Shown here piece by piece: positions 3,511 through 49,096 of a DNA stretch of 64,000 bases. The stretch is from Microcoleus vaginatus WJT46-NPBG5 (GTDB lineage Bacteria; Cyanobacteriota; Cyanobacteriia; Cyanobacteriales; Oscillatoriaceae). The DNA is taken from contig JAHHHM010000012.1 in NCBI GenBank assembly GCA_019359355.1, forward strand, positions 124,001 through 188,000. The letters run 5' to 3'. Position 1 is the first letter of the stretch, and every line of letters begins with the position of its first letter. Position numbers and translations under genes: made by a program. Under the pieces are notes generated by a model that saw only the letters and a list, made by a program, of their open reading frames with translations, did not search any database and was not told the origin of the DNA.

Positions 3511-4518
3511 ATGAAAGTTATCTTCTTTGGCACCCCCCAGTTTGCAGTCCCCACCCTGGAACAATTGCTGGCTCATCCAGAATTTGAAGTCTTGGCTGTG
3601 GTTTCCCAACCGGATAAACGTCGAGGACGTGGCAACGAGTTAACGCCTTCGCCCGTAAAGGCGGTTGCCACTGCTCACAACCTGCCGGTGTGGCAGCCGG
3701 CACGCGTGAAAAAAGACGCGGAAACGCTCAGTCAGTTAAAATCGGCAGAGGCAGATGTTTTTGTGGTGGTGGCGTACGGCCAGATTCTGTCTCAGGAGAT
3801 TCTGGATATGCCGACATTGGGTTGCATTAATGTGCATGGCTCGATTTTGCCTCAATACCGGGGTGCAGCGCCGGTGCAGTGGTGTATTTACAACGGTGAA
3901 CCCCAAACCGGCATTACGACGATGCTGATGGATGCCGGCATGGATACGGGAGCAATGCTGCTGAAAGCTTCTACTCCAGTAGGGTTACTTGATAACGCTC
4001 ACCAGTTGGCGCAAACGCTTGCAGATGCCGGCGCTAAGTTATTGGTGGAAACCCTGTTAAAGCTGGAACGCCAGGAAATTCAACCGATTCCCCAAGATTC
4101 TTCGCTTGCAACTTATGCGCCGCTAATTAAAAAAGAAAATTACTGGCTCGATTGGTCACGCTCTGCTATTAATTTGCATAATCAAGTTAGAGGTTTTTTT
4201 CCGAACTGTGCGGCTGTCTTTCGCGGCGGGCAGCTAAAAATCGTCGCAACGGCACCCCTCGGCTCGGAATACTGGACTCAGCTACCTCCAGAGTTGAATG
4301 GGCTAGAAGCTGAGCTGCCGGCTCAGTCTGGGCGTCCGGGAGAAGTCGTGAGTATCGCTAAAGGGCTAGGGCCAATCGTTCAAACCGGCAATGGTTTGTT
4401 GCTATTGCGGGAAGTTCAGCTTGCCGGTAAACGCGCCCAGTCAGGAACCGACTTTGCCAATGGCACTCGTCTGGCAGTGGGGGAGGTTTTGGAAAATGGC
4501 GGAACTGGGGAGGGCTAA
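3511..4518 (+). CDS. fmt: Methionyl-tRNA formyltransferase
   Basis: Transfers a formyl group from 10-formyl-tetrahydrofolate to the amino group of initiator Met-tRNA. The protein opens [20 protein letters not shown], has the formyltransferase loop [19 protein letters not shown] (Asn and His catalytic) and [12 protein letters not shown] (catalytic Asp), and a C-terminal OB-like domain. The length, 335 residues, is normal. The ATG at 3511 is chosen over the ATG at 3502 because family members start at MKVVFFGTP. It is followed by the convergent uvsE gene. The usual 'HASLLP' is 'HGSILP' here, a mild variation. Confidence 0.96.
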
Positions 4519-4611
4519 GCCAGGACGATTACTCCACAAAGAAGTCATTGTTGCTTCAAAAGTGGATAATGCCTCTGTAATTTTACAATTATGCAATTTA
4601 AATGTAAAAAT

Positions 4612-5553
4612 TTAAACGAAAACAGGCACGGAATCCAGATTTGGCAGCCACTCGGTTCGCAACTTATCGATAGCCTGTTCTTTCAGTTTCGCTTCCACCT
4701 CAATCCAGGGAGCAGCGGAGTAGCAACTAGGCATTACTGTAATAAAATCGCTGTGGTGCCGGTCTAAGAAAGACTCACAACCGTTGGAGATATGCACCAG
4801 TTGCCATTCAGGATTCGGCCAAGTGGTGCGGGCGGCTGCCAGCATTTGGGCAACGCTGGGGTCTTCGTAAGTATTTAAACCTTCGTGAATCACGTGATGG
4901 TGAGCGTCAAAGACCATTGGCACGCCGGCAGCGTGGCAAATCTCTAGAATTTCGGAAGCGCCGTAAGCGTATTCATCATTTTCCAGTGCGAGGCGAGTGC
5001 GAATGTTTTGGGGCAACGCTTTGATCACATGGACTAAGGCTTCGGATCTTTTCGATTTGCCGCCGTGGATTTCCATGATCGCCCAAGGCGAGTGGGGCAA
5101 CCCGAGTTTATCCATAATTCGGGCGTGTGTTTCCAGAATTGTGATGCTGTTCGCGACAACATCCGGCTTTTCTGAACTAAGCACAACAAATTGATCGGGA
5201 TGTATGACAAGGCGAATACCGGCGGCGATAGCGCGTTTGCCGGTACTCAACAATTCTTCTGTAAACTCATCAAGCACGGCTTCACCCAGGGGGGTATCAG
5301 CAAACGGGAAAAGCGCAGAACTGAGCCGGTAAAGGTGGATTTTATGGGTCGTACAAAAATCCCATGCGCCATTTAACCGCTGTAGGTTGTTGCGATACAA
5401 CTCGCGCAGAACTGTAGCTTGCTCATCATCAGTGAGTTGCAAGAGTCGCTTGCGTGTGACGGTGCGGAAACGCACGTGATCAGAGGTTGTGATGCATACC
5501 AACCCCAGCTTGGGCGGCACCTTATTCTCGGATAAACTGGGTATCTTGCTCAT
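4612..5553 (-). CDS. uvsE: UV damage endonuclease UvsE (UvdE family)
   Basis: TIM-barrel endonuclease that nicks 5' of UV photoproducts, starting a repair route independent of UvrABC. Visible signatures are LGLVCITTSD, YRLSSALFPFAD, IHPDQFVVLSSEKPDVV, WAIMEIHGGKSKRSEA, LALENDEYAYG and VFDAHHHVIHEG; these supply the metal-binding His, Glu and Asp residues of the three-metal site. The 313-residue length is normal for bacterial members. It is convergent with fmt, with 93 bp between stops and no clear terminator. A UV-repair enzyme of this kind fits a light-exposed phototroph. Confidence 0.95.
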   Translation of the reverse strand: MSKIPSLSENKVPPKLGLVCITTSDHVRFRTVTRKRLLQLTDDEQATVLRELYRNNLQRLNGAWDFCTTHKIHLYRLSSALFPFADTPLGEAVLDEFTEELLSTGKRAIAAGIRLVIHPDQFVVLSSEKPDVVANSITILETHARIMDKLGLPHSPWAIMEIHGGKSKRSEALVHVIKALPQNIRTRLALENDEYAYGASEILEICHAAGVPMVFDAHHHVIHEGLNTYEDPSVAQMLAAARTTWPNPEWQLVHISNGCESFLDRHHSDFITVMPSCYSAAPWIEVEAKLKEQAIDKLRTEWLPNLDSVPVFV

Positions 5554-5641
5554 GCTTCACAAGATACCTTTTCAGCTTTTTCAAAGGCATCTGCAAATAG
5601 ATATAAACACATTGGCTGTGATGCTTGCTTTTACAACGTCG

Positions 5642-5998
5642 CTATAAAGATTTTTCATAAAACCGGCAACCTTCGCATGGCCCTGCAGGACTTACGGCAC
5701 AGCGAATGATTTCTGAGCGAGCATTAAACTTGCAGGTAGCGTCTCCAAGTACCCAGTGTCCATTGACGAGACTTGTTTCGCTGGGTCGTTGTGCGGATTG
5801 GACATAAAGAGCAATTTTTTGTAAGCGATACTTACCCGATTTCAGTTGATAGCGGTGCCGGCGTTCTAATACTGCATAGGTTTGACCTTCTAGATCAAGG
5901 TAATGACCTGGTTGAGGACTCCAGTCAAGTTGAATGCTGCCCAAAGATTGAGAGGGTTGGGTCAGAATGACCTCTGTTGGTAGAGAATCTGGCTCCAT
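5642..5998 (-). CDS. DUF6464-like small Cys-containing cyanobacterial protein
   Basis: A 118-residue protein whose C-terminus GDATCKFNARSEIIRCAVSP ends in PCEGCRFYE. The four conserved cysteines (C..C..C-x2-C) suggest a metal site. I associate the pattern G-D-x-x-C-x-x-N-A-R-S...R-C-A-V-x-P-x-G-P-C-x-x-C with the cyanobacterial DUF6464 family, from memory. The N-terminal ~70 residues look like a small beta-rich domain (YLDLEGQTYAVLERRHRYQL). No function is known. It ends 88 bp before the uvsE start and could share its transcript. Confidence 0.7.
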   Translation of the reverse strand: MEPDSLPTEVILTQPSQSLGSIQLDWSPQPGHYLDLEGQTYAVLERRHRYQLKSGKYRLQKIALYVQSAQRPSETSLVNGHWVLGDATCKFNARSEIIRCAVSPAGPCEGCRFYEKSL

Positions 5999-7335: not shown

Positions 7336-9888
7336 TTAGCTTGTTTGGCTGGGTCCATTAATGGGTAAATCCACAGTAAAGCAAGTTTGACCGGCTTCAC
7401 TCTTGACTTGGATTGTACCTCCCAAGCGTTCGGTCAGTTTGTGCACCACTGCAAGTCCTAACCCAGTCCCGCCTTGCTGCCACCGATCAGCTTTGGGAAT
7501 GCGGTAAAACTTCTTAAAAATGTTGTTTAATTCTTCTGGCGGAATTTCAGCACCGGAATTGGTGACGCTGAACTGCACTCGGTCGCCCACTGCAGCAACT
7601 TCTACAGTAATTTGCTCACCTGCCGGCGTGTACTTGCAGGCATTGGTCAGCAACTCAGCTAAAACTCGCTTCAGAATCGATGGATCGCCAAATAAATCTG
7701 GCAGATCGGGTGACATCTCCAGTTGCAGAACTTGCTGGCAGTTGCGAGTTTGATCTTCAAAAGGCTCGACGATTTGTGGGATCAGCCGTTGCAGTTGGAT
7801 GATTGCCGGTGCCCAAGTTTGAGAACCGGCATCAAGTTGCTGTAACTCCAGCAAGTCATTGATTAAGTGAATTTCTCGCTCACATTCGTTTCGGACAATT
7901 TGGAAGTAACGGGCGAGTTTGCTGCGTTCTGCTTCCGGTTTAGTCAATTCTGCAAAAAAGCCTGTTTCTTGATTCAGCGAGATCGCGAGCATTTGAATCG
8001 CCATTTTCATATTCGATAAAGGCGTCCGCAATTCGTGAGACACTGTACTCAAAAAGTCATCTTTCAGTTCATTGAGTTTGGCAAGTTCCGTTACTTGACT
8101 TTGTGCGGATTGATAAAGTCGAGCTTGTCGCAGTGCAATCGCGCAATGATGTGTCACGAGCTGCACTAAGCGAATTTCTAGAGCGTTAAAATTATCCTCT
8201 GGCTGTTTAAATAACCACAAATCGCCGAGAACCTCATCGCCATGAGAAATCGGGCAAGCTAAGATGGCTGAGTTCCCTTGACTGTTGTTGCTGCCGGCCT
8301 GACAAAACTGAAATTCCTTACCTTGAAGTAGTTGGCAATAAACTTGTGGAAAGTCTGCCATTGGTCGGCTTCGTAACGAAGACGGCGGCGAAGTTGAGTG
8401 GTGGTGACAAAGGGTAACCGTTGTTCGGTCGGCACTGTACACCGCACTGCTACACTCTTCAACCCCTAGCACCTCAGCCAGTTCTTTGACTGCTGTTTGC
8501 AAAATCTGAGTTTCATCAAGACTGTCGCAGGCTTTATCGGTTATGCGTTGCAGCATTGCTTCAAACTCCAGAACTTGTTGCAGCTGTTCGTTGCAGTCTT
8601 CAACTTGACGTACTAAATCTGCATTGAGCTGCCGCACCTTCTCACACAGTCGCGATTGCTGGATCGCTATTTCTAATTGTGTCGTAACTGAGGTCAGTAA
8701 ATCAATTTCAAACGGTTGCCACTGCCGGCTGCTTTCGCACTGATGGGCAATAAGCAATCCCCACAATTTTGAAGGGGAATTTGACGGTTGAGAATCTAGA
8801 GTTTTTTGTGCGGCGTTGATTCTCAATTCTTCACCCACAAGCAGGGGGACAATTAACTGAGATTTAATCCCGAAGAATTCGAGAAGCTCAAAATGAGCCG
8901 GCTCCAAATTAACAGTGCTGGTATCCTCAATCGCTTGAAAGCGACCTCGCTGATACCGCCTCAGATACTGTTCGCTAGAAAGGCAGGGTTCGCGGAGCGA
9001 AAATCCCAGCATCGATATCCAGCCTGACGCTAAAGATTCTACAACCATTGAACCGCTCCAGTCTTCTGCAAATCGGTAGATTAGCACCCGATCAGCTTGC
9101 AGCGCTTCTCTCACTTCTGAGGCAGCGGTGTTGAGGGTTTCCCGAAGATTGGAAGCGTGCCGGCTCTGCTGGGATATCGTCGCACTCAACCGTTCTTTTT
9201 GGGCTTGCCGGCGCACCGCTGCTTCTAACTGCTGCTGTTCCTTGGCTTTCTGTTGCAGCTGTTCGTCAGCTGCCTGCACAGATGAGATCAACTCGGTTTC
9301 TACCGCCGTACGTTCAGCCAGATGCTGTTCTAGCTCATTGACTTGATGCTGCGCCTGTTGGTATAAAACGGCTTGCCCAATGGCAACTGCCATCATACTA
9401 GCCACTTCACACGCCCAGTGAATGTGTTCGGGGGTAAAGGCGTCTGGAGTGTCTGCCCCGATGTTGAGGCAACCCAGGATGGGGGCTTTAGCGGGGCGAA
9501 AGTCTTCTGGGTGCCCAACGATTGGTACGCTGAGATAGCAGCGCACGCCCTCTGCTTGCAAGGCTTGAAGCGCTCTTGAAGGATTGGAGAGGTTGAGGAG
9601 GTTTCCTGTCAGGTGAACTTCACCTTGCCAAATTTCTGGGGCAAGCGCCAAGACTTCGAGGGGTAGACGGGTTCCTTTTTCTCTGGGGGGTTCGCCGATG
9701 GTGTAGGTAGCGAGGATGGTTGCTGCACCGGCTTGTCTATCGAACTTGATAAGACTGGCTTGCCGGCAGGGTATGAGTTGATGCAACTGGCTAATCGCTA
9801 GACGCGCCATGACTTGTAGGGAACGCGCCGGCTGCATCGATTGAGCAGTTTCTCGCTGACTGTCTAAATATTCTGCAGTGTACTGCAT
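7336..9888 (-). CDS. GAF-GAF-GAF sensor histidine kinase
   Basis: Soluble 850-residue kinase. GAF1 covers ~20-180, a Gln/Glu-rich coiled coil ~180-235, GAF2 ~245-415 and GAF3 ~445-590; then HisKA with STVSHELRTPLSN (phospho-acceptor His618) and an HATPase_c domain (LLTNACKYTP, GTGLGLAVV). GAF2 resembles phytochrome/cyanobacteriochrome GAFs (DRVLIYRF, GRFQAIEDTS, SQLIVPLL, LWGLLIAHQC), but the bilin-binding Cys position is Ala331 (PAHFELL instead of xCHxxxL); a Cys302 sits in EPCL. It is therefore probably not a standard bilin photoreceptor. No membrane segment. The start ATG has a good Shine-Dalgarno sequence (AAGGAGA, 5 nt spacing). It may be co-transcribed with the proline-rich gene 58 bp downstream. 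Confidence 0.9.
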   Translation of the reverse strand: MQYTAEYLDSQRETAQSMQPARSLQVMARLAISQLHQLIPCRQASLIKFDRQAGAATILATYTIGEPPREKGTRLPLEVLALAPEIWQGEVHLTGNLLNLSNPSRALQALQAEGVRCYLSVPIVGHPEDFRPAKAPILGCLNIGADTPDAFTPEHIHWACEVASMMAVAIGQAVLYQQAQHQVNELEQHLAERTAVETELISSVQAADEQLQQKAKEQQQLEAAVRRQAQKERLSATISQQSRHASNLRETLNTAASEVREALQADRVLIYRFAEDWSGSMVVESLASGWISMLGFSLREPCLSSEQYLRRYQRGRFQAIEDTSTVNLEPAHFELLEFFGIKSQLIVPLLVGEELRINAAQKTLDSQPSNSPSKLWGLLIAHQCESSRQWQPFEIDLLTSVTTQLEIAIQQSRLCEKVRQLNADLVRQVEDCNEQLQQVLEFEAMLQRITDKACDSLDETQILQTAVKELAEVLGVEECSSAVYSADRTTVTLCHHHSTSPPSSLRSRPMADFPQVYCQLLQGKEFQFCQAGSNNSQGNSAILACPISHGDEVLGDLWLFKQPEDNFNALEIRLVQLVTHHCAIALRQARLYQSAQSQVTELAKLNELKDDFLSTVSHELRTPLSNMKMAIQMLAISLNQETGFFAELTKPEAERSKLARYFQIVRNECEREIHLINDLLELQQLDAGSQTWAPAIIQLQRLIPQIVEPFEDQTRNCQQVLQLEMSPDLPDLFGDPSILKRVLAELLTNACKYTPAGEQITVEVAAVGDRVQFSVTNSGAEIPPEELNNIFKKFYRIPKADRWQQGGTGLGLAVVHKLTERLGGTIQVKSEAGQTCFTVDLPINGPSQTS

Positions 9889-22516: not shown

Positions 22517-24391
22517 ATGGATTGTAAAGAAGCCTTAGAATTTGCAGATAACTTAATTTATGCCAGCACCGGCAAGCACCTCAATGATCTAGAAAGAGAA
22601 GTGTTCACCGGCTCTTGGCAAGGACAAACCTATGAGGAAATTTATCCAATTAACCCTGAATATGTAGAAAAATATGTTGGTTATAAATTGTGGCAAAAGC
22701 TTTCTGACGCTTTAGGGGAAAAAGTCACTAAAAAAAAGGTGAAAGGAGCGCTTGAAAGAGCCATCGAGCGACAAGGAAAACCCCCTAGTCTGGCAGTTAA
22801 AAAAGTTTTTATCAGCTATCGCAGCCAAGAACCGGATTCGTCTTTAGCGGCGCAATTTTGTGAAGCGATCTCAGCGGCTGGACATAAAGCATTTACTACG
22901 AATTTAGGAGTGAGTTCTCCGGGTTCTATTCAGCCGGCAGAAGATTGGCTTTCTCAGCTTGACTCACAACTCAACGATTGTGACTGTTTTCTACTACTAC
23001 TTTCCCCACAAGCAGCCGTGAGTGAAATGGTCATTGAAGAGTTGCAGCGAGCGCGACAGTTGCGGGATTCTCGCCACAATAGTAAGCCGGTTGTGTTACC
23101 GATTCGGATTAATTTTCCTGCTAATTTGTCGCTCAATCACGACTTGCAAAGCTACTTACACGGAACTGTGCAGAGTGAGTGGATTTCGCCGGCAGACACT
23201 CCAAGGATCGTGGGAGACGTTCTCAAGCAACTGGCAGAGGGTGTTGAAAAGGGACAAGCGGATAAAATTGAAGAGTGGGAAAGTGCCGGCAGTTCCTCAA
23301 TTTCCGCCTCCCCATCCCTCAACCCGAATGCTCCACCCTCGCCGGTTGCCGAACCTGAGTTACCAAGTGGTCAAGTGCGTCTTGCTTCTGCATTTTACGT
23401 TGAGCGTGTTCCCTGTGAAACGCAATGTTATAAAGAAATTTTGCAACCCGGATGTTTAATTCGGATTAAAGCGCCTAGACAAATGGGCAAAACGTCATTA
23501 ATGGCGAGAATTCTTTATCAAGCAAAAGAACAGGGATATCGCACCGTTCCGCTAAGTTTTCAACACGCGGATACGGCAGTTTTTACGAACCTTAAAGAAC
23601 TTTTACAATGGTTCTGTGCAAAAATTAGCCGAAAGCTACGACTGCCTTATCAAGTTGATGATTATTGGAGTGATACTTACGGCAGTAAAGATAACTGTAC
23701 CGCTTTCTTTGAAGATTGTTTATTGCCGGAAACCGATAGCCCTCTCGTACTGGGTTTAGATGAAATTGATCGGGTTTTTCACTATCCCAAAATTGCCGAT
23801 GATTTTTTTGGGTTATTACGTGCTTGGTATGAGGAAGCGGGATATGGGGCGAATGATGGCTATGTTTGGGAAAAACTTCGCTTAGTCGTTGTTCACTCAA
23901 CGGAAGTTTACATTCCTTTAGATATCAATCAATCGCCGTTTAATGTGGGTTTGCCGATAGAATTGTCGGAATTTAGCACGGATCAAGTGTTTGACTTGGC
24001 GTGCCGGCATGGACTGAATTGGGGGGAAAGCGAGGTTGAACAACTCATGACAATTGTGGGAGGACATCCTTATCTAGTCCGCTTAGCGCTTTATCACATT
24101 GCTGGGCAGCAACTCACCTTAACGCAACTGGCAGAAATTGCCCCGACAGAAGCCGGAATTTATGGTGATCATTTGCGCCGGCACTTATGGAATCTTCAAC
24201 AGCACCCAAATTTAGCGGCAGCATTCGCTAAAGTAGTTGTAACCAACGAACCGATTGAATTAGAATCTGTGCCGGCGTTTAAATTACACAGTCTGGGGTT
24301 AGTACAGTTGCGGGGAAATGAGGTAACGCCGCGTTTCGATTTATATCGTCAGTATTTCCGAGATCGTCTAAACAAAATTTCCTCAAGTTAA
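22517..24391 (+). CDS. vMAP-type HTH - TIR - AAA_35 (STAND-like) ATPase
   Basis: A 624-residue protein with three parts. Residues ~5-82 match the N-terminal HTH domain common in cyanobacterial conflict proteins (GSWQGQTYEEI, then LWQKLSDALGEKVTK). Residues ~95-240 form a TIR domain (KKVFISYRSQ, CDCFLLLLSPQAA), with the catalytic-type Glu in SEMVIEELQRA (Glu174/175), which in active TIRs cleaves NAD. After a Ser/Pro linker, ~285-610 is an AAA_35 ATPase: Walker A in [10 protein letters not shown] (~319-328), Walker B VLGLDEID (~411-418), and a C-terminal winged-helix-like part. This is the layout of a STAND sensor-effector. An AAA_35-4xGAF gene follows on the same strand after 330 bp. Role in phage defence or cell death is inference. 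Confidence 0.85.
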   Translation: MDCKEALEFADNLIYASTGKHLNDLEREVFTGSWQGQTYEEIYPINPEYVEKYVGYKLWQKLSDALGEKVTKKKVKGALERAIERQGKPPSLAVKKVFISYRSQEPDSSLAAQFCEAISAAGHKAFTTNLGVSSPGSIQPAEDWLSQLDSQLNDCDCFLLLLSPQAAVSEMVIEELQRARQLRDSRHNSKPVVLPIRINFPANLSLNHDLQSYLHGTVQSEWISPADTPRIVGDVLKQLAEGVEKGQADKIEEWESAGSSSISASPSLNPNAPPSPVAEPELPSGQVRLASAFYVERVPCETQCYKEILQPGCLIRIKAPRQMGKTSLMARILYQAKEQGYRTVPLSFQHADTAVFTNLKELLQWFCAKISRKLRLPYQVDDYWSDTYGSKDNCTAFFEDCLLPETDSPLVLGLDEIDRVFHYPKIADDFFGLLRAWYEEAGYGANDGYVWEKLRLVVVHSTEVYIPLDINQSPFNVGLPIELSEFSTDQVFDLACRHGLNWGESEVEQLMTIVGGHPYLVRLALYHIAGQQLTLTQLAEIAPTEAGIYGDHLRRHLWNLQQHPNLAAAFAKVVVTNEPIELESVPAFKLHSLGLVQLRGNEVTPRFDLYRQYFRDRLNKISSS

Positions 24392-24721: not shown

Positions 24722-27700
24722 ATGTTTTCGCAAAAACCAGAAACCGTGTTAGATGAAGAACCAAACTCAAACTATCGCTACAAAGTAGGCGGGCATTTGC
24801 CCCTTGATGCCCCCACTTATGTCGTGCGACAAGCTGATCGAGACCTTTATGAAGGGTTAAAAGCCGGTGAGTTTTGCTATGTGCTGAATTCCCGACAAAT
24901 GGGTAAAACCAGCTTGCGGGTGCGAACAATGCACCGGCTGCAAGCAGAAGGCGTTGCTTGTGCGGCAATCGATCTGACGAAAATTGGTAGCCAGGATATC
25001 ACGCCGCAGCAGTGGTATGCCGGCTTGATGAGACGCCTGGTGACAAGTTTTCACCTTCAGATTAATTTAAGGTCTTGGTTGCGCGATCGCGAGTTTTTGC
25101 CGCCGGTGCAATGCTTGAGTGAGTTTATTGAACAAGTATTGCTTGATTCTGTCAGTGAACAAATTGTTATTTTTATCGATGAAATTGATAGCATTCTCAG
25201 CTTAAATTTCCGAACTTATGACTTTTTTGCCTTTATTCGCGCCTGCAATGAATATGACCGGCTGACCTTTGCATTGCTGGGCGTTGCCAGTCCTTCAGAT
25301 TTAATTAAAGATAAAAAATATACTCCCTTTAATATTGGTCGTGCTATCGAGTTGCACGGTTTTGAAATTGACGAAGCTCAAACCCTCGCCCAAGGTTTTG
25401 AAGGAAAAATTAGTGATCCTCAAGCCGTTTTAGAAGCTGTTTTAAACTGGACCGGCGGCCAACCGTTTCTCACCCAAAAGCTTTGCAAACTTATTCTTGA
25501 GAATGCAGAAGGTAAATTAATTAAAAATCCCCAAGCATGGGTGGAAAGCATCGTACAAACTCGCTTGATTGAGAATTGGGAAGCTCAAGACGAACCACCG
25601 CATCTCAAGACGATTCGCGATCGGCTGCTCAGAAGTGGAGACCGTACAGAACTGCTCCTAAAACTTTACCAGCAAATTTTACAGCGTGGTGAAATTGCCG
25701 CTGATGAAAGCCTTGAACAGATGGAACTGCGGCTTTCTGGGTTAGTCGTCAAAGAGGGGGGAACTCTCAAGGCTTATAACCGCATTTATGGGGCGGTTTT
25801 TAATTGGGTTTGGCTAAACAAAGCTCTAGCAATTCTGCAACCTAGCTTTCAGCAACTGGTTGCCAATCAAGAACACAAGCTCATGTCGATGCTTAGCGGC
25901 ATGGAGGGGAAAGATTTTGATGATATTCTTTACGAAATTCTGGGTTCTATTATCCTGAAGCTAGGCGAGTTGATGAGCGTTGATCGCATGGCTATCTTTT
26001 TTATTGATAAAGATAAAAATGAATTGTGGTCAGTGATTGCCCGAACAGCCGGTATAAGTTCTACTAAGATTCAAATATTGGCAAATAATCCGAGCGCCGG
26101 TCGAGTCACGATTTATAAGCAAGCAGTCAATGTGCCGGCTGATTTATCAGAAGATTGGTATTCCGGAGTTGCTCAGGAACAGGATAAAAGAACCGCCTAC
26201 CACATTTATAATGAGTTTACTTCACCTTTGTTGAACGAGAAAGAAAACATTTTTGCGTTTGTTCAGTTAGTGAATAAACTCAAGCAACCGAATAATCCCA
26301 ACGCTTTGTTTGCAGAAAGAGTGGCAGAAGCGGGTTTTACAGAGGCAGATAAACAGCAATTTGCTGAATATGCGCCGGCACTGCAACGAATTTTAGAAAG
26401 ATGCCAGTCTTGTTATAAATTAACTCAAAGATTGCAAGCGTCTGAAGCACTCACAGAAGCCACTCGTTCTGTTTCTCAAAGCAGTCTAGATTCGGAAGAA
26501 ATCATCACGCGGGTGATGGAAGCTGCTAAAAAACTGATGAACGCGGATCGCAGCACGCTTTGGTTGCTAGACTCTGAAAATGATGAATTATGGACAAAAA
26601 TTACCTTTGAAGATGGGACTGTGCGGGAACTGCGCGTGCGAGTGGGACAAGGATTTGCCGGCAAAGTCGCTGCCACAGGTGAACCTCTAAATATTCCTTT
26701 TGATTTGTATAATCACCCCGACTCAGAAACCGCCCAGCAAACTGATCGAAAAACAGGATACCGCACTTGCAGTTTACTCTGTATGCCGGTTTGGAGTCCT
26801 GAAGGTGAATTAGTCGGAGTGACGCAATTAGTTAATAAACGAAAACCGGGTGAGCATCTTGAATACGATCCCGAAAATTGGCCAGAAGCGCCTGAATGTT
26901 TCGAGGATAGTTTTGATGCCAATAGTCAAAAGTATATGCAAATTTTTAACTCTCAAGTGGGAGTTGCTTTGCAAAACGCTAAACAGTTTGCCGCGCTGAA
27001 ACAACAAGCGGAAAATCAACCGCAAAATGTTGTTAGCCAAACCTTGGCGATGCTTAACCAGGTCATGGACGGTCAAGGATTTGATGATATTCTTGATGCA
27101 ACTCTGCGTTCGATTACTTTAAAAATGGGTAAATCATTGAGTGCAGATCGCACAACGATTTTTCTATTAGATGAAGAACGAAATGAATTTTGGTCAATTA
27201 TTGCCGAAGCGGAAGGGGATCGATCTTTAGAAATTCGGCTGCCGGCAGATAAAGGAATTGTGGGAGAAGTAGCCGGCTGCAAGCAAATTATTAATATTCC
27301 CTACGACTTTTATGATGATCCCCGCTCTACTACCGCCAAAGAACAAGACCTAAAAAATGGTTATCGCACTTATACAATGCTGACATTGCCCCTGTTAAAT
27401 GATCAGGGAAATTTAATTGGGGTGATTCAGTTAATTAACAAATTAAAGCGTTTTTATAATCGGACGTCACCGTTGTCTGAACAAATTGATCCAGAAGGTT
27501 TTACTCAACTAGATGAAGAACGATTTGCAGAAAATGCTCCCCTAATTCAAATGATTTTGGAAAGCTTCCGCTCTTATCATAAAACAGCAAGAGGGCAGCG
27601 GGTGGCGGCAGCACTCATGGCAGCAACTCGCTCGGTTTCTCAAAGTAGTTTAGAACTTGATTCGATCCTCAAACGGGTGATGGAAGCTGCGAAAGAATTG

Positions 27701-28246
27701 ATGAATGCGGATCGCAGCACGCTTTGGTTACTGGATCGCGAGACAAATGAGCTGTGGACAAGAATTCCTTTTGGTGACGGTTCGATGAAGGAACTGCGGG
27801 TGAGTGTGGGACAAGGTTATGCCGGCAAAGTGGCAGAGATGGGAGTGCCACTAAATATTCCTTTTGATTTATATGATTACCCGGATTCAGACATGGCGAA
27901 GAAAACAGATCGCACCACCGGCTATCGCACTTGCAGTTTACTCTGTATGCCGGTTTGGAATCCCGATGGTGAGTTGATTGCTGTCACGCAATTAATCAAT
28001 AAAATTAAACCGGGTGAGCCTTCAATACACGCGCCGGTTGAGCCGAATGTCGTGCCTGATTATTTCCAGGCAAGTTTTGATCAAAGTGATCAGCAATATT
28101 TGCAAATATTTAATAATCAAGTGGGGGTGATTCTCCAGAATGCTGAGCTTTTAGCAGCAGTCAAACGACAGGAGCAAACACTACGCATTAACCTGAGTGG
28201 CGCATCAGATGTTGAGTCACAAGTTGCCGGCAACCAGTCAAGATAA
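24722..28246 (+). CDS. AAA_35 ATPase fused to four tandem GAF domains
   Basis: A 1174-residue soluble protein. Residues ~20-370 are an AAA_35 ATPase with Walker A in [11 protein letters not shown] (55-65) and Walker [12 protein letters not shown] (148-158). Four GAF domains follow: A ~398-560, B ~588-755, C ~788-945 and D ~980-1142. B and D are near copies of each other (both [30 protein letters not shown]), and A and C are related, so the GAF pair was duplicated inside the gene. GAF C has a full NKFDE motif (N906-K907, F927, D931-E932), known for cAMP/cGMP-binding GAFs; the others have partial versions. No kinase, cyclase or phosphatase output is attached, unlike many relatives. It probably acts with a partner. 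Confidence 0.87.
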
Positions 28247-40692: not shown

Positions 40693-43600
40693 ATGCTAGG
40701 CCAAGAAAATCTGCTTCATCAAATCACCAATCGCATCCGGCAATCACTCGAACTGCCAGAGATTTTGAACACAGCCGTGCGAGAAATTGGCTCCTACTTA
40801 GAGGTAGACCGAGCCAAGATATATAAATTTGATGCAGATGACACTGGGGCAGTCATTGCCGAAAGTGTCCAAGAGCAGCGCTTACCCTCACTGCTGGGCC
40901 TGCATTTTCCTGCCGGTGATATCCCGCCGCAAGCCAGGGAAATGTTTCTTAAAACACGTCAACGCGTGATTATTGATGTCACCGCTCAGCGGAAAATCTT
41001 TAATCAGTTGGATTGTGCAGAAACCGGCGAAAATCTCAGCGTTGAAGACATCCGCTACGCGCCGGTTGACGAGTGCCACGTTGAATATCTTTTGGCAATG
41101 GGAGTGCTCGCTTCTCTAACCGTGCCAATTGTTTATCAAAACCGGCTTTGGGGACTGCTTGCCATCCACCACGCCCAACCGCGCCGCTTCTCAGATCGAG
41201 AGTTGCAAATTATCCAACTTTTAGTCGATCAGATATCCATTGCCATTGCTCAGTCTAACTTGGTCATTCAAGTGCAGCAGCAGGCACATCACGAAGCCAT
41301 GATTAATCGAGTAAGCAGCCTCCTGCACTGCCCCCTTAATCAGGCTGAAATCCGGCAAATGGTTCTAGAAGAAACGGTTAAAGCACTGCAAGGTTCGGGT
41401 GGGCGGCTACATATTGTTGTGGAACCGACAGGGCAGCCATCACAAATCTATACCTATGGCGAACAGCCGACGGTGCCGTTTATTGAAGAAACCACCGTCT
41501 GGAAAGAACTGATCGGTTGGCAGGAAACGCCGGCAACCCATAGCCCAACTCATGAAGAAATCGCCCTCGCTTGGGAACAGGTGGGAAAATCGCTGATTCC
41601 CCTGGATGTCAACACTCACAGCAGCCCCACCTTTAGCACCAGTGGAGTTCACTCCCCCCAGATCATCACCAGCTTCTGTGGCGACATTCGAGGGCAGTCC
41701 CTAGCCTATGCCTTTGAATCCACTCCAATTCGCTCCATCTTAATCATCCCACTCCAATACCGGCACCAGTGTGTGGGGTGCCTGAGTATTTTTCGCAATG
41801 CTTATGATACTGAAGTGATGTGGGCAGGGCGCTACAACCGGGATGAACGGAACCTGCAGCCGCGCAAATCATTTGAAGCTTGGCGCGAACTTAAAACAGA
41901 GCAAAGTCCAGAATGGACACCCGATGAAATCAAGCTGGCACAGTCGATTGGGATTCACCTGTACATGGCACTGATGCAAAAGCGCGTAGAATCGATGCTG
42001 CGCCATCAAGCATCCCATGACCGGCTCACAAAGCTGCCCAACCGGCTGCTATTTGACGAACAGCTTTCCCTGGCATTAGTAAACGCACATCAAACCGGAG
42101 AAATGCTGGCGGTCGCATTTCTAGATTTAGATCGCTTCAAAACCGTTAATGATACTTTAGGTCATGCAGTCGGTGATCAGCTATTGCAGCAAGTAACAGA
42201 ACGCTTGCAGAGTTGTCTTCGTAAGTGCGATGCCGTTGCGCGGTGGGGTGGAGATGAATTTACGCTTTTGTTTCCCCACATTGGTTATGTGGAAGACATT
42301 AGCAAAATTTCTCGGAGAATTTTGGATGCTCTGAACACTCCATTTTTTATCGAAGATCAGGAACTTTATATTAGTGCAAGTTTAGGAATTTCCTTAGCTC
42401 CCTATGATGGCGAAGATGCAGAAACGCTGCTGAAAAATGCAGATACTGCCATGTATCGAGCCAAGCAGCAGGGGAGAAATAACTATCAGTTTTACTTGCC
42501 TGAAATGAACACCCAAGCGCTAGAAAAATTGGGGTTAGAAGCCGATTTGCGTAAGGCGTTGGCAAGAGACGAGTTGCTGCTGTATTACCAACCTCAAATA
42601 GATATCAACACCGGGGAAATTGTTAGCTTAGAGGCGCTGATTCGCTGGCAGCACCCGCATCTGGGATTGGTGCCACCGAATCAGTTTATTCCCTTAGCAG
42701 AAGAAACAGGACTGATCTGCCCGATTGGGGAATGGGTGATCCGGACTGCGTGTAGCCAGCATCAAGCTTGGTGCGAACAAGGGCTGGCTCCGATTCCGAT
42801 TGCAGTCAATCTTTCGGGTCGGCAGTTTCAACAGCAAGGTTTGGTTAAAACGATTAAGCAAATTCTGGAAGAAACTAACCTAGAGCCTTGTTATCTAGAA
42901 GTAGAAATTACTGAAAGTATTGCGATGGAGGACATCGATTTTACTATTGCTGTTTTGCGAGAACTACAGCAAATGGGAATTAAAATTGCAATGGATGATT
43001 TTGGTACGGGTTATTCTTCGCTTAATTCTATCAAGTATTTTCCTTTACATACGATCAAAATAGATCAGTCATTTGTGCGGGATTTAATTCAAGATTCTAG
43101 TGATGCCGCAATTGCGAAAGCCGTTGTTGCCCTCGGAAAGGGTTTGAACTTAGAAGTCTTAGCTGAAGGAGTTGAGACGTTAGAACAGTTAGAATTTTTA
43201 CGGGCTATTGGTTGTGACAGCGCTCAAGGCTATCTTTTTAGTAAACCGCTGCCTCCAGAAGCCGCTTTTCAACTTTTAAGCAATTGGGTGCCGGCGCAAC
43301 CACAGCGGCTTTTAAGTGAGGGAAATAATTTAGAGGGTTGCCTATCTTACGCCCAGGTTAGTGAAAAAGCTGAAGTGGCCGATCAACTATTAGAAGAAAA
43401 AATAAATGAAAAGAGAAACCCTGAAGAAATGTTGATTCGTGCCAAAGCTCTAGAAGTCGTTAATCAAGAACTTGAACAACAAATTATTAAGTACAAGCAG
43501 ATTGAAGAAGCACTGCGCCACCAATACAAACAAGAGCAATTAATGGCAAGCATTGCTCAAAAAATTTTCTTAAACTTTGACTTAGAAGAAGTTTTAAGCA

Positions 43601-44055
43601 AAATAGTTAGAGAAGTGCGACAGTTTATGGGTGTTGACCGGCTCATCCTTTATTGTTTTGAACCGGATTGGAGTGGCCAGGTAATGGTAGAATCTGTAAC
43701 CGAAGGTTGGAACTCTCTCCTCGGCGTAAAAATAGAAGATTGCTGTTTTAAAGAAAACTACGTTCACTATTACAAAGAAGGGCGAGTGAGAGCGATAGAA
43801 GATATTTATGACGCTGTTTTAGCGCCCTGTCATATTAATTTATTGGCTCAGTTTCAGGTGAGAGCTAATTTGGTTGTTCCTGTCCTGCAAGGCGATAATT
43901 TGTGGGGACTGTTAATCGCTCAACAGTGTCGCGAACCCCGGAACTGGCAGCAGCATGAGATTAGCCTGCTGAACCAAATCGCAATTCAAGCGGCGATCGC
44001 TATCCAGCAAGCTGAACTTTACCGGCAGCTAGCCAGCGCTCAACCGCAGCCGTAG
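40693..44055 (+). CDS. Cph2-like phytochrome: GAF(PHY-like pair)-GGDEF-EAL-GAF(DXCF cyanobacteriochrome)
   Basis: A 1120-residue photoreceptor. GAF1 (~15-190) is phytochrome-like, with GDIPPQAREMF (Asp76-Ile-Pro) and the bilin Cys128 in DECHVEYLL. GAF2 (~200-430) is PHY-like, with a tongue WAGRYNRDERNLQPRKSFEAW. GGDEF (~445-600) has RWGGDEF intact and an RxxD inhibitory site (510-513). EAL (~610-865) has LEALIRWQHP, EVEITES, MDDFGTGYSSLN and AEGVETL, all intact. GAF3 (~945-1110) is DXCF-type: DCCF (1016-1019) and canonical Cys1046 in APCHINLL, exactly 28 residues apart as in TePixJ-type domains. Synechocystis Cph2 has the same order plus a final GGDEF, which is absent here. Likely a light-controlled c-di-GMP enzyme. 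Confidence 0.93.
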   Translation: MLGQENLLHQITNRIRQSLELPEILNTAVREIGSYLEVDRAKIYKFDADDTGAVIAESVQEQRLPSLLGLHFPAGDIPPQAREMFLKTRQRVIIDVTAQRKIFNQLDCAETGENLSVEDIRYAPVDECHVEYLLAMGVLASLTVPIVYQNRLWGLLAIHHAQPRRFSDRELQIIQLLVDQISIAIAQSNLVIQVQQQAHHEAMINRVSSLLHCPLNQAEIRQMVLEETVKALQGSGGRLHIVVEPTGQPSQIYTYGEQPTVPFIEETTVWKELIGWQETPATHSPTHEEIALAWEQVGKSLIPLDVNTHSSPTFSTSGVHSPQIITSFCGDIRGQSLAYAFESTPIRSILIIPLQYRHQCVGCLSIFRNAYDTEVMWAGRYNRDERNLQPRKSFEAWRELKTEQSPEWTPDEIKLAQSIGIHLYMALMQKRVESMLRHQASHDRLTKLPNRLLFDEQLSLALVNAHQTGEMLAVAFLDLDRFKTVNDTLGHAVGDQLLQQVTERLQSCLRKCDAVARWGGDEFTLLFPHIGYVEDISKISRRILDALNTPFFIEDQELYISASLGISLAPYDGEDAETLLKNADTAMYRAKQQGRNNYQFYLPEMNTQALEKLGLEADLRKALARDELLLYYQPQIDINTGEIVSLEALIRWQHPHLGLVPPNQFIPLAEETGLICPIGEWVIRTACSQHQAWCEQGLAPIPIAVNLSGRQFQQQGLVKTIKQILEETNLEPCYLEVEITESIAMEDIDFTIAVLRELQQMGIKIAMDDFGTGYSSLNSIKYFPLHTIKIDQSFVRDLIQDSSDAAIAKAVVALGKGLNLEVLAEGVETLEQLEFLRAIGCDSAQGYLFSKPLPPEAAFQLLSNWVPAQPQRLLSEGNNLEGCLSYAQVSEKAEVADQLLEEKINEKRNPEEMLIRAKALEVVNQELEQQIIKYKQIEEALRHQYKQEQLMASIAQKIFLNFDLEEVLSKIVREVRQFMGVDRLILYCFEPDWSGQVMVESVTEGWNSLLGVKIEDCCFKENYVHYYKEGRVRAIEDIYDAVLAPCHINLLAQFQVRANLVVPVLQGDNLWGLLIAQQCREPRNWQQHEISLLNQIAIQAAIAIQQAELYRQLASAQPQP

Positions 44056-44236: not shown

Positions 44237-46447
44237 ATGAATCAAGAACAGATTGAGAGGCGCTTGCAGCGGTTAAAGGAGGAGCAAGAACTCATCCTTA
44301 ACCAAGTTGATAATGCGATTGCGCTGTTTGACCAATTTGATCGCTTAATTTTGTTTAATCGCAAACTTGCTGAAATTTGGGGGATGTCGCCTGAGTGGCT
44401 TCAAGAGCAGCCTCATTGTGACGTCGTTTTTGCCAAGGTAGTAGAACAACGCTATTGGTCAACTGAGCAGGTAGAACAGCTCAGGCAAGCCCTTGAACAA
44501 ACAGAAAGCGAGAGTGTTTCCCTGTATCTGGAACAGGCAAATGGCATCTGCTTAGAGGTTTATACCACCATGACTTCAGATGGGGGCCGGCTTTTTACGT
44601 TTCGGGATGTCACCGGCTATCGCAGATCCCAAGATAATTTGAACGCTGAAGTCAGGCGTCTGAGATTTATACTCGGTTTAACGGAACGGCTACAAGCGTC
44701 TGTGGAACTACGGGAAATTGGCCAGTTTGCCCTGAGCTACCTGGTACAGGCGATGAATGCTGCCTTTGGGGATGTGAAAGTGATCACCGGCATCGGGATG
44801 GATCGTTACGCCGGCATCCTCACCAATCAAATTTCCACTGAGTTTATTGCCACTCATGGTGTGCCGGCTGTGGCTGAGATGGAGGCAGTGCTGGCTCAAG
44901 GTATTCCCTACGGGCAAGGATTGGTTTGGGAGGTTGTAGAAACCGGCAAACCGTTGTTTATCGATGACTATCAAAACCACCCAAAGGCGGTGCCGGCATT
45001 TCGCCATCCCGGTATCGGGCAGTTGGGCATCTTTCCCATTCCCTCCACCACCGGCAAAATTATTGGGTTGCTCACCTTAGAATCGCGCAATCTGCAAAAA
45101 CTACAGGAAGCACCGCAACAGGATATGCTCCTCGCAGCCTGTCGTACCTTGGGTGTAGCTATCGAACGCGCTGAAGCCCAAGCCCATTTACAGCAGATTA
45201 ATAAAGATTTAGAGCGGGCATCCCAGCTAAAATCCGAGTTTCTGGCGGCGATGTCTCACGAACTGCGGACGCCCCTCAACAGCATTCTGGGCTTCGCAGA
45301 TTTGCTACACCGGCAAACAGGTGGCCCTTTAACTGATCGACAGGTTAATCATGTCAAGGCAATTGAAAAAAGCGGCCAGCATTTGTTGCAATTGATTACG
45401 GATATTCTGGATCTCTCTAAAATTGAAGCCGGCAAAGCTGAGCTAGATGTAGAGCCGGTTTCAATTCCAGAACTGTGCGGGCAGTGTTTAAAAATGATTC
45501 AACCCCGCGCTCAAGCCAAAGGGTTAGCGCTGAGTCTGGAATTAAATTACCAATTCAATGGTGTCATGCTCGATGAGCGCAGAGTTCGGCAGATGCTGAT
45601 TAACTTGCTGTCAAATGCCGTTAAATTCACCCCGGAGGGAGGACGCGTTAAGCTGGCTGGACGTTTAGCTTACGGCACTCAACTGGCGCAAGATGTTCGC
45701 CCTGATACAAGTCCGGTACACCCCATGACGCCGTACCTGTGTTTGGAGGTGAGTGACTCTGGGATCGGGGTGCCCCAGGAAAAGTGGCACTTGCTGTTTC
45801 GCCCGTTTCAGCAGGTAGATTCTTCCTTAACCCGCCGGCATGAAGGCACGGGTTTGGGACTAGCACTGACAAAGCGGCTGGCGGAACTGCATGGGGGGAC
45901 GGTGTCGTTCCAATCAATTGCCGGTGAGGGCAGTACGTTTCGAGTTTGGCTGCCGGTGACGGAACCGCGTCGGGAGGTGCCGGTTGCTCATGAGCGGCTT
46001 GCCAGATTAAGCCGTTCTAGCGCACATACCAGTTTCGATGGAAGTGCAACGGCTGTTAGTGTCAAGCGTGTTTTGGTTGTGGAAGATCAACCTTCTAACC
46101 AAATTTTGATCGCGGAGTTTTTGGAGTCTGAAGGGTACAGGGTTGAGCTAATTTGTGATGGTTCTGCCATGTTGGAGGCGATTCACTCGCCTTTAGTGAC
46201 GGTAAGTTCACTGCCCGATTTGATTTTGATGGATATTCAGCTGCCTGATGTGGAGGGGTTTGAATTGATCCGGCAGCTAAAAGCTCATGCACTTTGGCAA
46301 CGGGTGCCGGTGATTGCGGTGACGGCGATGGCGATGCCGGGAGATCGTGAGCGATGTCTTCAAGCCGGTGCGGATGGCTATTTAAGCAAACCGCTTAATC
46401 TGGATCGCGTGTTTTCAACAGTGCGTTCTTTTGCCGGCTCAACTTAA
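44237..46447 (+). CDS. PAS-GAF hybrid histidine kinase with receiver domain
   Basis: A 736-residue soluble kinase. Residues ~10-130 are a PAS-like domain (DNAIALFDQFDRLILFNRKL), ~150-315 a GAF domain, then HisKA with FLAAMSHELRTPLNSI (His341), HATPase_c (NLLSNAVKFTPEGG, GTGLGLALTKRL) and a C-terminal receiver (VLVVEDQPSNQ; phospho-Asp666 in LILMDIQLPD; YLSKPL). An internal receiver implies a multistep phosphorelay or self-control. The gene is 180 bp downstream of the photoreceptor gene and 165 bp upstream of the REC-cyclase gene, all plus-strand, so its natural target may be the cyclase's receiver, as inferred from position only. Confidence 0.92.
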   Translation: MNQEQIERRLQRLKEEQELILNQVDNAIALFDQFDRLILFNRKLAEIWGMSPEWLQEQPHCDVVFAKVVEQRYWSTEQVEQLRQALEQTESESVSLYLEQANGICLEVYTTMTSDGGRLFTFRDVTGYRRSQDNLNAEVRRLRFILGLTERLQASVELREIGQFALSYLVQAMNAAFGDVKVITGIGMDRYAGILTNQISTEFIATHGVPAVAEMEAVLAQGIPYGQGLVWEVVETGKPLFIDDYQNHPKAVPAFRHPGIGQLGIFPIPSTTGKIIGLLTLESRNLQKLQEAPQQDMLLAACRTLGVAIERAEAQAHLQQINKDLERASQLKSEFLAAMSHELRTPLNSILGFADLLHRQTGGPLTDRQVNHVKAIEKSGQHLLQLITDILDLSKIEAGKAELDVEPVSIPELCGQCLKMIQPRAQAKGLALSLELNYQFNGVMLDERRVRQMLINLLSNAVKFTPEGGRVKLAGRLAYGTQLAQDVRPDTSPVHPMTPYLCLEVSDSGIGVPQEKWHLLFRPFQQVDSSLTRRHEGTGLGLALTKRLAELHGGTVSFQSIAGEGSTFRVWLPVTEPRREVPVAHERLARLSRSSAHTSFDGSATAVSVKRVLVVEDQPSNQILIAEFLESEGYRVELICDGSAMLEAIHSPLVTVSSLPDLILMDIQLPDVEGFELIRQLKAHALWQRVPVIAVTAMAMPGDRERCLQAGADGYLSKPLNLDRVFSTVRSFAGST

Positions 46448-46611: not shown

Positions 46612-47976
46612 ATGTTAAGTAACCAGCCCTGCATTCTGCTTGTTGATGATGAGCCGAGCAATTTATATTTATTAGAAGAATTGCTGCAATCAGAAGGGTA
46701 TGCCACCCTTTTGGCCGAATCAGGGTTCAAAGCGCTAGAACTGGCAAAGACCTCTTTGCCGGCAATGATTTTGCTAGATGTGATGATGCCGGATATGGAT
46801 GGGTTTGAGGTGTGCCGGCGTTTGCGCGAAGATGTGAATTTACAAACGGTGCCGGTGATTTTTTTAACCGCGCTTGATGATGACGATTCTCGTCTCAGGG
46901 GATTAGAGATGATGGGAGATGACTATATTGCAAAGCCGGTTAAAAGTACGTTGCTGTTAAAAAAAATTGCGAGTGTATTGCACCTAAACCAAATGCGAAT
47001 GCAGCAATCGCAAATCCAAATCGGGCAGCAAATGAAGGAAAAAAGTCAACGAAATATGGCAGCAGCTTGGCAAATCAATCAAGCGCTTACGGAAAAATTT
47101 CGGCTTTTTGTCCCCGAACAATTTCTCCAACGTATTGCGCCGCGTGGTGTGGAATCGATTGAGTTGGGAAATGCGAAGGAGGAAGAATTATCGATTGTCT
47201 TTTGCGATATTCGCGGCTTTACGGCTATTGCAGAATCCCAACAAGCGATTGATACCTTTAACTGGTTAAATGCGTTTTTTACGCAGATGAATCAAGCCAT
47301 TTCCTCCCATTTTGGCTTTATTGATAAGTTTTTGGGCGATGCAATTATGGCAGTTTTTGACCGGGAAGGACAGCACGCGCAAGATGCTTTGAATGCGGCA
47401 GTTATGATGCGGCAAAACCTGCGCGAGTTTAATGCTAGCCGGGATTTATTTAATTTAAAAGAGCCGGTGAATATTGGGATTGGGCTACACACCGGCAGGG
47501 GTTTGATCGGCACACTTGGGGCGGATTCTCGCATGGACTCAACCGTCATTGGTGATGTGGTGAATACGGCGTCTCGGTTGGAAGATTTGACAAAAGTTTA
47601 TGGATGCCAGGTGATTGTTAGTGATGCTGCAATTGCTCAGTTAAATCAACCAGAGTTTTTTCATTTACGCTGGATTGATCGCGTCGCGCCGCGTGGCAAG
47701 CAGCAAGCGATTAATATCTACGAGGTACTAGGTTCGCAAACCCATCCCCTTGATGAGGCGAAGATCCTGTCGTTGCCGGCATTTGAGATGGGAATTCAAT
47801 CATGGCAGCAGGGAAACTTCCCGCTTGCTTTAGCATCTTTTGAAGATATTTTTAATAAAAATAGGATAGATAGCGTTGCGGCGCTTTACATTCGACGCTG
47901 CGAGTCTCGCTTAAGTTCACTACCGCCAGATTTCGAGCAAAGTGGGTCGACGTGGGATGGACTGTCGGTGGGGTAA
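46612..47976 (+). CDS. Response-regulator class III adenylate cyclase (REC-CHD)
   Basis: 454 residues. Residues ~5-125 are a receiver (ILLVDDEPSN; Asp56 in ILLDVMMPDMDG; IAKPVK). A helical linker leads to a class III cyclase domain (~185-370): metal-binding Asp199 (VFCDIRGFT) and Asp243 (FLGDAIMAVF), adenine-selecting Lys239 (IDKFLGD) and Asp315 (TVIGDVVNTA), and transition-state Asn318 and Arg322. The set predicts an active adenylate cyclase rather than a guanylate cyclase. It closes a plus-strand trio with the photoreceptor and the hybrid kinase. Phosphorylation of Asp56 would be the natural control. A receptor for its product might be the NKFDE GAF protein at 24.7 kb. Confidence 0.93.
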   Translation: MLSNQPCILLVDDEPSNLYLLEELLQSEGYATLLAESGFKALELAKTSLPAMILLDVMMPDMDGFEVCRRLREDVNLQTVPVIFLTALDDDDSRLRGLEMMGDDYIAKPVKSTLLLKKIASVLHLNQMRMQQSQIQIGQQMKEKSQRNMAAAWQINQALTEKFRLFVPEQFLQRIAPRGVESIELGNAKEEELSIVFCDIRGFTAIAESQQAIDTFNWLNAFFTQMNQAISSHFGFIDKFLGDAIMAVFDREGQHAQDALNAAVMMRQNLREFNASRDLFNLKEPVNIGIGLHTGRGLIGTLGADSRMDSTVIGDVVNTASRLEDLTKVYGCQVIVSDAAIAQLNQPEFFHLRWIDRVAPRGKQQAINIYEVLGSQTHPLDEAKILSLPAFEMGIQSWQQGNFPLALASFEDIFNKNRIDSVAALYIRRCESRLSSLPPDFEQSGSTWDGLSVG

Positions 47977-48223: not shown

Positions 48224-49096
48224 ATGGCAACTCTCCAACAGCGCCGACCTGAAAATATCGCTGGCGATTTTTATGTTGACACTACCTGCATTGATTGCGA
48301 TACGTGCCGATGGATGACTCCGGAGGTGTTTCACAGTGCCGGTGATCAGTCAGCAGTTTATCACCAACCCACTGACGAAGCCGAAAGATTGAAAGCGATG
48401 CAAGCACTTTTGGCTTGTCCGACCGCTTCTATAGGCACGGTTGAGAAGCCAAAAGATATTAAAGAAGCACAGCAAAGTTTTCCCATCCCCGTTACAGAAA
48501 ATATTTACCATTGTGGCTACCATGCTGAAGATTCTTATGGGGCAGCAAGTTACTTAATTACCCGACCAGAAGGCAATATTTTGGTTGATTCTCCTCGGTT
48601 TTCCCCGCCGTTAGTCAAGCGCATAGAAGCAATGGGAGGGATTGACTATTTGTATCTCACTCACCGAGATGACGTGGCAGATCATCAGAAGTTTCACGAA
48701 CATTTTGGATGTGAGCGAATTTTACATCAAGATGAGATCAATGCCGGCACTCGTGATGTGGAAATTCAATTGGCTGGATTTGAGCCGTTAGAATTAGCAA
48801 CAGATTTGTTAATTATTCCCGTTCCAGGTCACACGAAAGGTCACACGGTTTTGCTGTACAAAAACAAGTTTCTCTTCACCGGCGATCATCTTGCTTGGTC
48901 TGCGGATCGCAACCATCTAATTGCTTTTCGCAATGCCTGCTGGTACTCGTGGCCAGAATTGCTTCAGTCAATGCGCCGGCTGACTGAGTATGAGTTTGAA
49001 TGGGTGCTTCCCGGTCATGGCCGCCGGTTTCATGCAGATAAAGAGGGTATGCGGCAAGAGATGCGGCAATGTATTGCTTGGATGGAAAGGCAATAG
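48224..49096 (+). CDS. MBL-fold metallohydrolase with N-terminal ferredoxin domain
   Basis: 290 residues. The N-terminal ~70 residues are a single-cluster ferredoxin-like domain (TTCIDCDTCRWM plus LLACPTASIG). The rest is a metallo-beta-lactamase fold: YLTHRDDVADHQKFHEHF (HxxDDxxxH with slight variation), PVPGHTKGHTVLLY, LFTGDHL and VLPGHGRRFH carry the His and Asp ligands of the two-metal site. Such fused proteins are known in cyanobacteria and plants, with unknown substrate, possibly redox-controlled hydrolysis of thioesters or similar. The ATG is preceded by AAGAGGTTTAAAA. Stands alone. Confidence 0.88.
   Translation: MATLQQRRPENIAGDFYVDTTCIDCDTCRWMTPEVFHSAGDQSAVYHQPTDEAERLKAMQALLACPTASIGTVEKPKDIKEAQQSFPIPVTENIYHCGYHAEDSYGAASYLITRPEGNILVDSPRFSPPLVKRIEAMGGIDYLYLTHRDDVADHQKFHEHFGCERILHQDEINAGTRDVEIQLAGFEPLELATDLLIIPVPGHTKGHTVLLYKNKFLFTGDHLAWSADRNHLIAFRNACWYSWPELLQSMRRLTEYEFEWVLPGHGRRFHADKEGMRQEMRQCIAWMERQ

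Follow-up and report, generated by a model that had tools for sequence, protein, structure and literature searches.

Can a light sensor that lies behind its output domains control them from the C-terminal side? The question is raised by a gene in a 64,000-nucleotide stretch of the Microcoleus vaginatus WJT46-NPBG5 genome (contig JAHHHM010000012.1, positions 124,001 to 188,000; here called the window). Its product, the window protein, carries in order a phytochrome-type GAF domain (GAF1), a PHY-like domain, GGDEF and EAL domains, and a further GAF domain (GAF3) of the cyanobacteriochrome (CBCR) type. We put at even chances the reading that a phytochrome of the knotless (group II, Cph2-like) kind is joined here to a complete GGDEF-EAL pair, with a DXCF-type GAF added C-terminally, and that both light sensors adjust this pair. 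At the level of sequence, GAF-PHY-GGDEF-EAL-GAF3 is a fresh arrangement of known parts that has been kept in four related genomes, and no report of the five-domain order was found among the matches and passages returned by literature searches.

Domain architecture of the window protein

The GAF, PHY, GGDEF, and EAL matches of the 1,120-residue protein all exceed the Pfam cutoffs; the GAF family matches two stretches, of which the better (1.5e-52) is GAF3. Residues 5 to 438 match the Cph2 structure 4bwi (4.3e-74, 253 bits). GAF1 begins at about residue 15, no N-terminal PAS domain was found ahead of it with Pfam, and a PHY/GAF2 tongue domain follows, as in a knotless phytochrome. The PRxSF tongue recurs in nearly all of 56 Cph2-like relatives, a sample of proteins with the GAF1-PHY-GGDEF-EAL core taken from 386 genomes of the phylum, 40 relatives, and a named collection. 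Synechocystis Cph2 (PMC5812497; PDB 4bwi covers its GAF1-GAF2) shares this succession of a knotless GAF-PHY module, a GGDEF-EAL pair, and a DXCF-type GAF. However, the window protein is without the second GGDEF of Cph2, and its first GGDEF (GGDEF1) is intact, whereas that of Cph2 is degenerate.

The catalytic set of the EAL domain is complete (EAL at residues 647 to 649, N706, EITES, DDF, K789, E825, and Q845), and the GGDEF signature is intact, so that both domains retain the catalytic residues expected of a bifunctional GGDEF-EAL protein. The window protein therefore probably both synthesizes and breaks down cyclic di-GMP (c-di-GMP), with a color sensor at either end. For the same reason, the term "single-output" used in an earlier note on this DNA, made from the sequence alone, is loose. 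The ORF (open reading frame) coordinates and all motif positions named in that note were exact, and its account of a Cph2-type domain order and of intact key parts (DIP, Cys128, PRKSF, RWGGDEF with RxxD, and the EAL motifs) was confirmed by Pfam, the 4bwi match, and the motif check.

The protein stops 16 residues past the Pfam match to GAF3. Its GGDEF is the only one on this part of the contig; across the host genome (6.46 Mb), GGDEF is matched 29 times and GAF dozens of times.

Conservation of the architecture in related genomes

The same architecture was found in two congeners (G001, 1,122 residues; G002, 1,121 residues), whose proteins are about 91% identical to the window protein and share its gene neighborhood. 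It was also found in the metagenome-assembled genome Oscillatoriales cyanobacterium Centralia_MAG_596 (L031; JAJPKC010000198.1), where the 1,123-residue protein is 63% identical over the sensor module and 66% overall. These four proteins form one clade on the core tree, with a support of 100 in the Shimodaira-Hasegawa-like approximate likelihood ratio test (SH-aLRT). tblastn searches with canonical Cph2 tails gave no remnant of a second GGDEF (GGDEF2) in the 8 kb downstream of the ORF. The absence of a second GGDEF noted earlier is thus real, since the identical end in three more genomes and the lack of a remnant rule out a frameshift or assembly error that hides GGDEF2.

A comparison of domain order across Cph2 homologues, which the earlier note had proposed, was run on the 56 relatives. 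Thirty-eight stop after EAL, 14 go on with GAF3-GGDEF, and only the four proteins of the window clade end with GAF3. The GAF3-less proteins, mostly 850 to 920 residues long, have the same four-domain core, about 50 to 60% identical and mostly with an intact GGDEF, but they end after EAL, with neither the linker helix nor GAF3. Proteins of about 1,600 residues (L016 and L116 to L118) share the core and a C-terminal GAF3 that is among those nearest to the window GAF3; they differ in having some 400 extra residues, a GGDEF2 after GAF3, and a GGDEF1 altered to GDDEF.

The state of GGDEF1 follows the presence of GGDEF2. GGDEF1 is degenerate (RWHGDxF, RWGDDEF, or RWGGDEL) in 14/14 relatives with a second GGDEF, and its signature is kept in 41 of the 42 proteins that have none, the window protein included. 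The degenerate GGDEF1 of Synechocystis Cph2 (PMC5812497) agrees with this pattern. Eleven of the 14 proteins carry an intact GGDEF2 (RYGGEEF with RxxD), and the remaining three have decayed copies of both GGDEFs. A sign test had just two to four independent pairs to draw on, and we present the co-occurrence as descriptive, with no claim of significance.

Two side observations concern this sample. The clade of L029, L110, and L122 retains an intact GAF1 and EAL but has degenerate versions of GGDEF1, GAF3, and GGDEF2, possibly giving a pure red-light phosphodiesterase. In L017, a stand-alone GAF3-GGDEF gene (20-1492) lies near a gene for a GAF3-less Cph2 core (3214-5937) on the opposite strand, so that the halves of Cph2 occur as separate genes.

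GAF3 is a DXCF-type domain under purifying selection

As the earlier note had read from the DCCF motif, GAF3 belongs to the DXCF type: Cys1018 precedes Cys1046 by 28 residues, the spacing between D-x-C-F and the canonical cysteine in DXCF CBCRs. Across 52 related GAFs, the conservation of each of these cysteines is 90% or more. Residue 1014, two before Asp1016, is Ile, as in TePixJ, where the red/green (XRG) lineage has Trp; this Trp criterion derives from the lineage motif WxDxxL (PMC11284453), placed against DxCF in a register that is our own reading. The GAF domain of TePixJ, a DXCF blue/green CBCR (PDB 4fof and 3vv4), has the same fold, the D-x-C-F motif, a cysteine 28 residues on, and no XRG Trp, but its X residue is Pro, where the window GAF3 has Cys. 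In TePixJ, a receptor of the chemotaxis type, the output follows the GAF; its PDB entry is named "methyl-accepting chemotaxis protein."

The fold of GAF3 and the helix that leads into it are predicted with high confidence. An AlphaFold2 model of residues 906 to 1120 reached a mean predicted local distance difference test (pLDDT) score of 93.5, with helix 910-960 entering GAF3 and the last helix at 1087-1116. Foldseek matched this model best to the dual-sensor kinase 6oap (E value, 4e-21) and also to TePixJ (4fof, 2e-17).

Between congeners, the ratio of nonsynonymous to synonymous substitution rates (dN/dS) was about 0.25 for GAF3, 0.24 to 0.37 for the linker, and 0.05 to 0.20 for the other domains, with GGDEF at 0.05 to 0.10. 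GAF3 is therefore under purifying selection and is maintained, but it is less constrained than the core. Both cysteines and the neighboring DXCF residues are kept in all four proteins, down to 54% GAF3 identity.

The doubled cysteine of DCCF had been singled out as unusual. The X position is Pro in most related GAFs and sometimes Thr, Ser, Asn, Arg, or Glu; in a genome scan D-P-C-F was far commoner than D-C-C-F. X is Cys in all three species of the window genus and Pro in L031, which suggests that the doubled cysteine probably arose within the clade. It is uncommon but not unique, since in the scan genera g5 and g77 also yielded correctly spaced D-C-C-F motifs in CBCR-like settings, although most other matches look like chance. 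CBCR-like GAFs outside the window genus with D-C-C-F and a cysteine 28 residues on are L193 to L198 (in G376, G008, G226, G219, G358, and G039) and L189 and L190 (in G068 and G079).

A possible two-color switch and its alternatives

The layout suggests the following mechanism. GAF1 and the PHY-like domain would bind a bilin and sense red/far-red light, and GAF3 would attach another bilin through Cys1046, use Cys1018 as the second cysteine, and sense light of the blue/green type. GAF1-PHY would tune the GGDEF-EAL pair from the N-terminal side, as in Cph2. GAF3 would tune the same pair from the C-terminal side through the 51-residue helix 910-960, because its own last helix ends at the stop and the usual path from a CBCR to its output leads nowhere. 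The result would be a c-di-GMP switch in which the ratio of two colors sets net synthesis or hydrolysis. From the sequence and the model we infer bilin binding, the colors, both enzyme activities, and the backward coupling in cis. The proposal that a CBCR GAF placed after the output signals backwards via its entering N-terminal helix, to a GGDEF-EAL pair also fed by a red/far-red phytochrome, and so forms a two-color comparator, is one that we hold tentatively, at somewhat under even odds.

Part of this proposal has a precedent. SesC (Tlr0911) of Thermosynechococcus likewise combines a CBCR GAF with a GGDEF-EAL pair and is bifunctional by color, blue light raising synthesis and green light raising hydrolysis (PMC9090330, PMC8846402). 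In contrast to SesC, the CBCR GAF of the window protein lies C-terminal to the GGDEF-EAL pair by Pfam. The sensor of SesC is N-terminal to its enzymes, and to our knowledge SesC is without a Cph2-type GAF-PHY module. A family of proteins of about 745 residues with the order EAL-GAF(DTCF)-GGDEF has a DXCF-type GAF right after EAL, as in the window protein, but differs in that a GGDEF follows the GAF, the EAL is divergent, and no GAF-PHY-GGDEF stands ahead. Its members are L162, L166, L174, L176, L177, L178, L180, and L186, of which only L186, a short frame, lacks the GGDEF.

Several points weigh against backward control by GAF3. In SesC and the other cases that we know of, the sensor is N-terminal to the output, and no precedent for C-to-N coupling was found in this analysis. 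The GAF3-less relatives manage without any GAF3 input, and GAF3 and the linker evolve faster than the core. A four-sequence model of GGDEF-EAL-GAF3 had a mean pLDDT of 41, too poor to show the contacts of GAF3. The earlier note treated feedback from GAF3 onto the middle pair as a necessity; such feedback is plausible, but it is one of three options.

A variant compatible with backward control is that the protein is mainly a phosphodiesterase, in which the GGDEF serves only as an allosteric GTP sensor and EAL is what the two light inputs adjust. Phosphodiesterases (DibA, Tlr1612, and others) give the best NCBIfam matches to the GGDEF-EAL part, although below their cutoffs, and in Synechocystis Cph2 it is EAL that carries the activity of this module (PMC5812497). 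However, the GGDEF signature and RxxD site are intact and strongly conserved, with the dN/dS given above, unlike those of proteins with a decayed GGDEF1. We regard this variant as quite possible, though we would not bet on it.

It is also conceivable, but in our judgment unlikely, that a working GAF3 signals to another protein (the adjacent histidine kinase, the REC-cyclase, or a docking enzyme) or controls dimerization or location, and not the GGDEF-EAL pair in cis. GAF3 has no output after it, and the genes for the kinase and the cyclase (Table 1) lie downstream on the same strand, with gaps of about 180 and 165 bp, no clear terminator between, and synteny in three species. Moreover, the Slr1143 cyclase interacts with the EAL/GGDEF domains of Synechocystis Cph2 (PMC5812497). 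This synteny says little, however, since within the genus gene order is conserved throughout the surroundings; in L031, whose protein has the same architecture, the 6.5-kb contig carries neither neighbor, and the kinase has no fixed place beside GAF3-less relatives. The idea that a conserved kinase/cyclase operon proves a trans partner is thus unsupported, and a promoter and terminator scan performed no better than shuffles.

That GAF3 serves a structural role or is fading, with weak or no bilin binding and no control of the enzyme, is likewise improbable. Its faster evolution together with the linker, the long branch of the L031 GAF3, the Gln that replaces Trp in LWGLLIA in G001, and the degenerate GAF3 known in the related L029, L110, and L122 would fit such a domain, but its dN/dS and the two cysteines with their DXCF surroundings, kept in all four proteins, argue against it.

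Origin of GAF3

Most likely, an already complete GAF-PHY-GGDEF-EAL core acquired the CBCR GAF at its end, judging by the GAF tree and by GGDEF1; gain is favored on these two grounds, though unproven. In the GAF tree, the GAF3 domains of the window genus and L031 form one clade (96/88), and in the best tree they fall among other CBCR GAFs, including some of the same genome, apart from canonical Cph2 GAF3. Four alternative groupings of GAF3 all withstood approximately unbiased (AU) tests (P values, 0.09 to 0.33).

The earlier note had described the final GGDEF as gone. Descent from a canonical six-domain Cph2 that lost this domain would account for the Cph2 order of the remaining five domains, and a clade of window GAF3 with canonical Cph2 GAF3 is among the unrejected groupings (AU P = 0.2). 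Canonical-clade proteins are true Cph2 relatives, since one of them, L025, matches the Synechocystis structure 4bwi at 405 bits, compared with 253 for the window protein. Within this clade nests L125 (693-3293), which has lost the whole GAF3-GGDEF2 tail and retains the dead GGDEF1 RWHGDVF. Read from its domains, L125 is what tail loss looks like, the one clear case among the GAF3-less proteins; as an aside, it may lack any cyclase. Because GGDEF1 is degenerate in all 14 bearers of GGDEF2, loss would leave a dead GGDEF1 as in L125, whereas that of the window protein is fully intact with its inhibitory site. Together with the 38 of 56 relatives that are without GAF3, the position of the window protein's GAF3 among other CBCR GAFs, and the clean downstream region, this suggests that the loss described in the note is probably wrong, and we give it little chance.

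Coordinates and other features of the window

TABLE 1 Features of the gene and its downstream neighbors (window coordinates)
Feature	Position	Strand	Basis
Whole gene, GAF1-PHY-like-GGDEF-EAL-helix-GAF3	40693..44055	+	ORF, ATG 40693, stop 44055, 1120 aa; same architecture in L011, L012, L031
GAF1, bilin-binding phytochrome-type GAF, residues 15-192	40735..41268	+	Pfam GAF/GAF_2; match to Cph2 structure 4bwi
DIP motif, residues 76-78	40918..40926	+	Both D76 and P78 unchanged across 15 aligned relatives
Cys128, presumed bilin thioether Cys of GAF1 (CHV)	41074..41076	+	C128 and H129 invariant in aligned relatives
PHY-like (GAF2) region, residues 350-430	41740..41982	+	Pfam PHY, 1.2e-11
PRKSF tongue motif, residues 390-394	41860..41874	+	P390, R391, S393, F394, W397 invariant in 15 relatives
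GGDEF domain, residues 440-597	42010..42483	+	Pfam, 2.5e-54
RKCD, the RxxD inhibitory site, residues 510-513	42220..42231	+	Motif and residue table
GGDEF signature, intact (RWGGDEF), residues 519-523	42247..42261	+	Motif and residue table
EAL domain, residues 617-852, catalytic residues intact	42541..43248	+	Pfam, 4.6e-77; residue table
Unbroken 51-residue helix 910-960 from EAL to GAF3, proposed signaling linker	43420..43572	+	AlphaFold2; no Pro/Gly in 913-955
GAF3, DXCF-type CBCR GAF, residues 963-1104	43579..44004	+	Pfam; PDB matches to TePixJ and other CBCRs
D-C-C-F, residues 1016-1019, X = Cys; Cys1018 presumed second Cys	43738..43749	+	Motif; conservation
Cys1046, presumed canonical bilin Cys of GAF3	43828..43830	+	Motif; conservation
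C-terminal GAF3 helix, residues 1087-1116, no output domain beyond	43951..44040	+	AlphaFold2; ends 4 residues before stop
PAS-GAF-HisKA-HATPase-REC hybrid histidine kinase, possible trans partner	44237..46447	+	Pfam; syntenic in genus only
REC-class III nucleotide cyclase	46612..47976	+	Pfam; syntenic in genus

Elsewhere in the window, a GAF-rich histidine kinase (7336-9888, minus strand) has a CBCR-like GAF (residues 247 to 409) with the motif LEPAHFELL; since the canonical Cys is replaced by Ala, this GAF is probably without the usual bilin attachment. A TIR-AAA_35 protein (22517-24391, plus strand) adjoins an AAA_35 protein (24722-28246, plus strand) with several fused GAFs that show no obvious bilin Cys, an odd STAND-like pair. 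At 48224-49096 (plus strand), a ferredoxin-like Fer4_13 domain is fused to a weak metallo-beta-lactamase-like domain.

Implications

In the sampled Cph2-like proteins, at most one GGDEF has an intact signature, and the first is degenerate wherever a second follows. This pattern makes the evolution and the direction of control in the Cph2-like family testable. If GAF3 of the window protein controls the enzyme pair upstream of it, CBCR sensors can drive their output from C to N terminus, and such control, if true, would bear on the reuse of GAF/PAS-like sensors and on how two-color c-di-GMP tools are designed.

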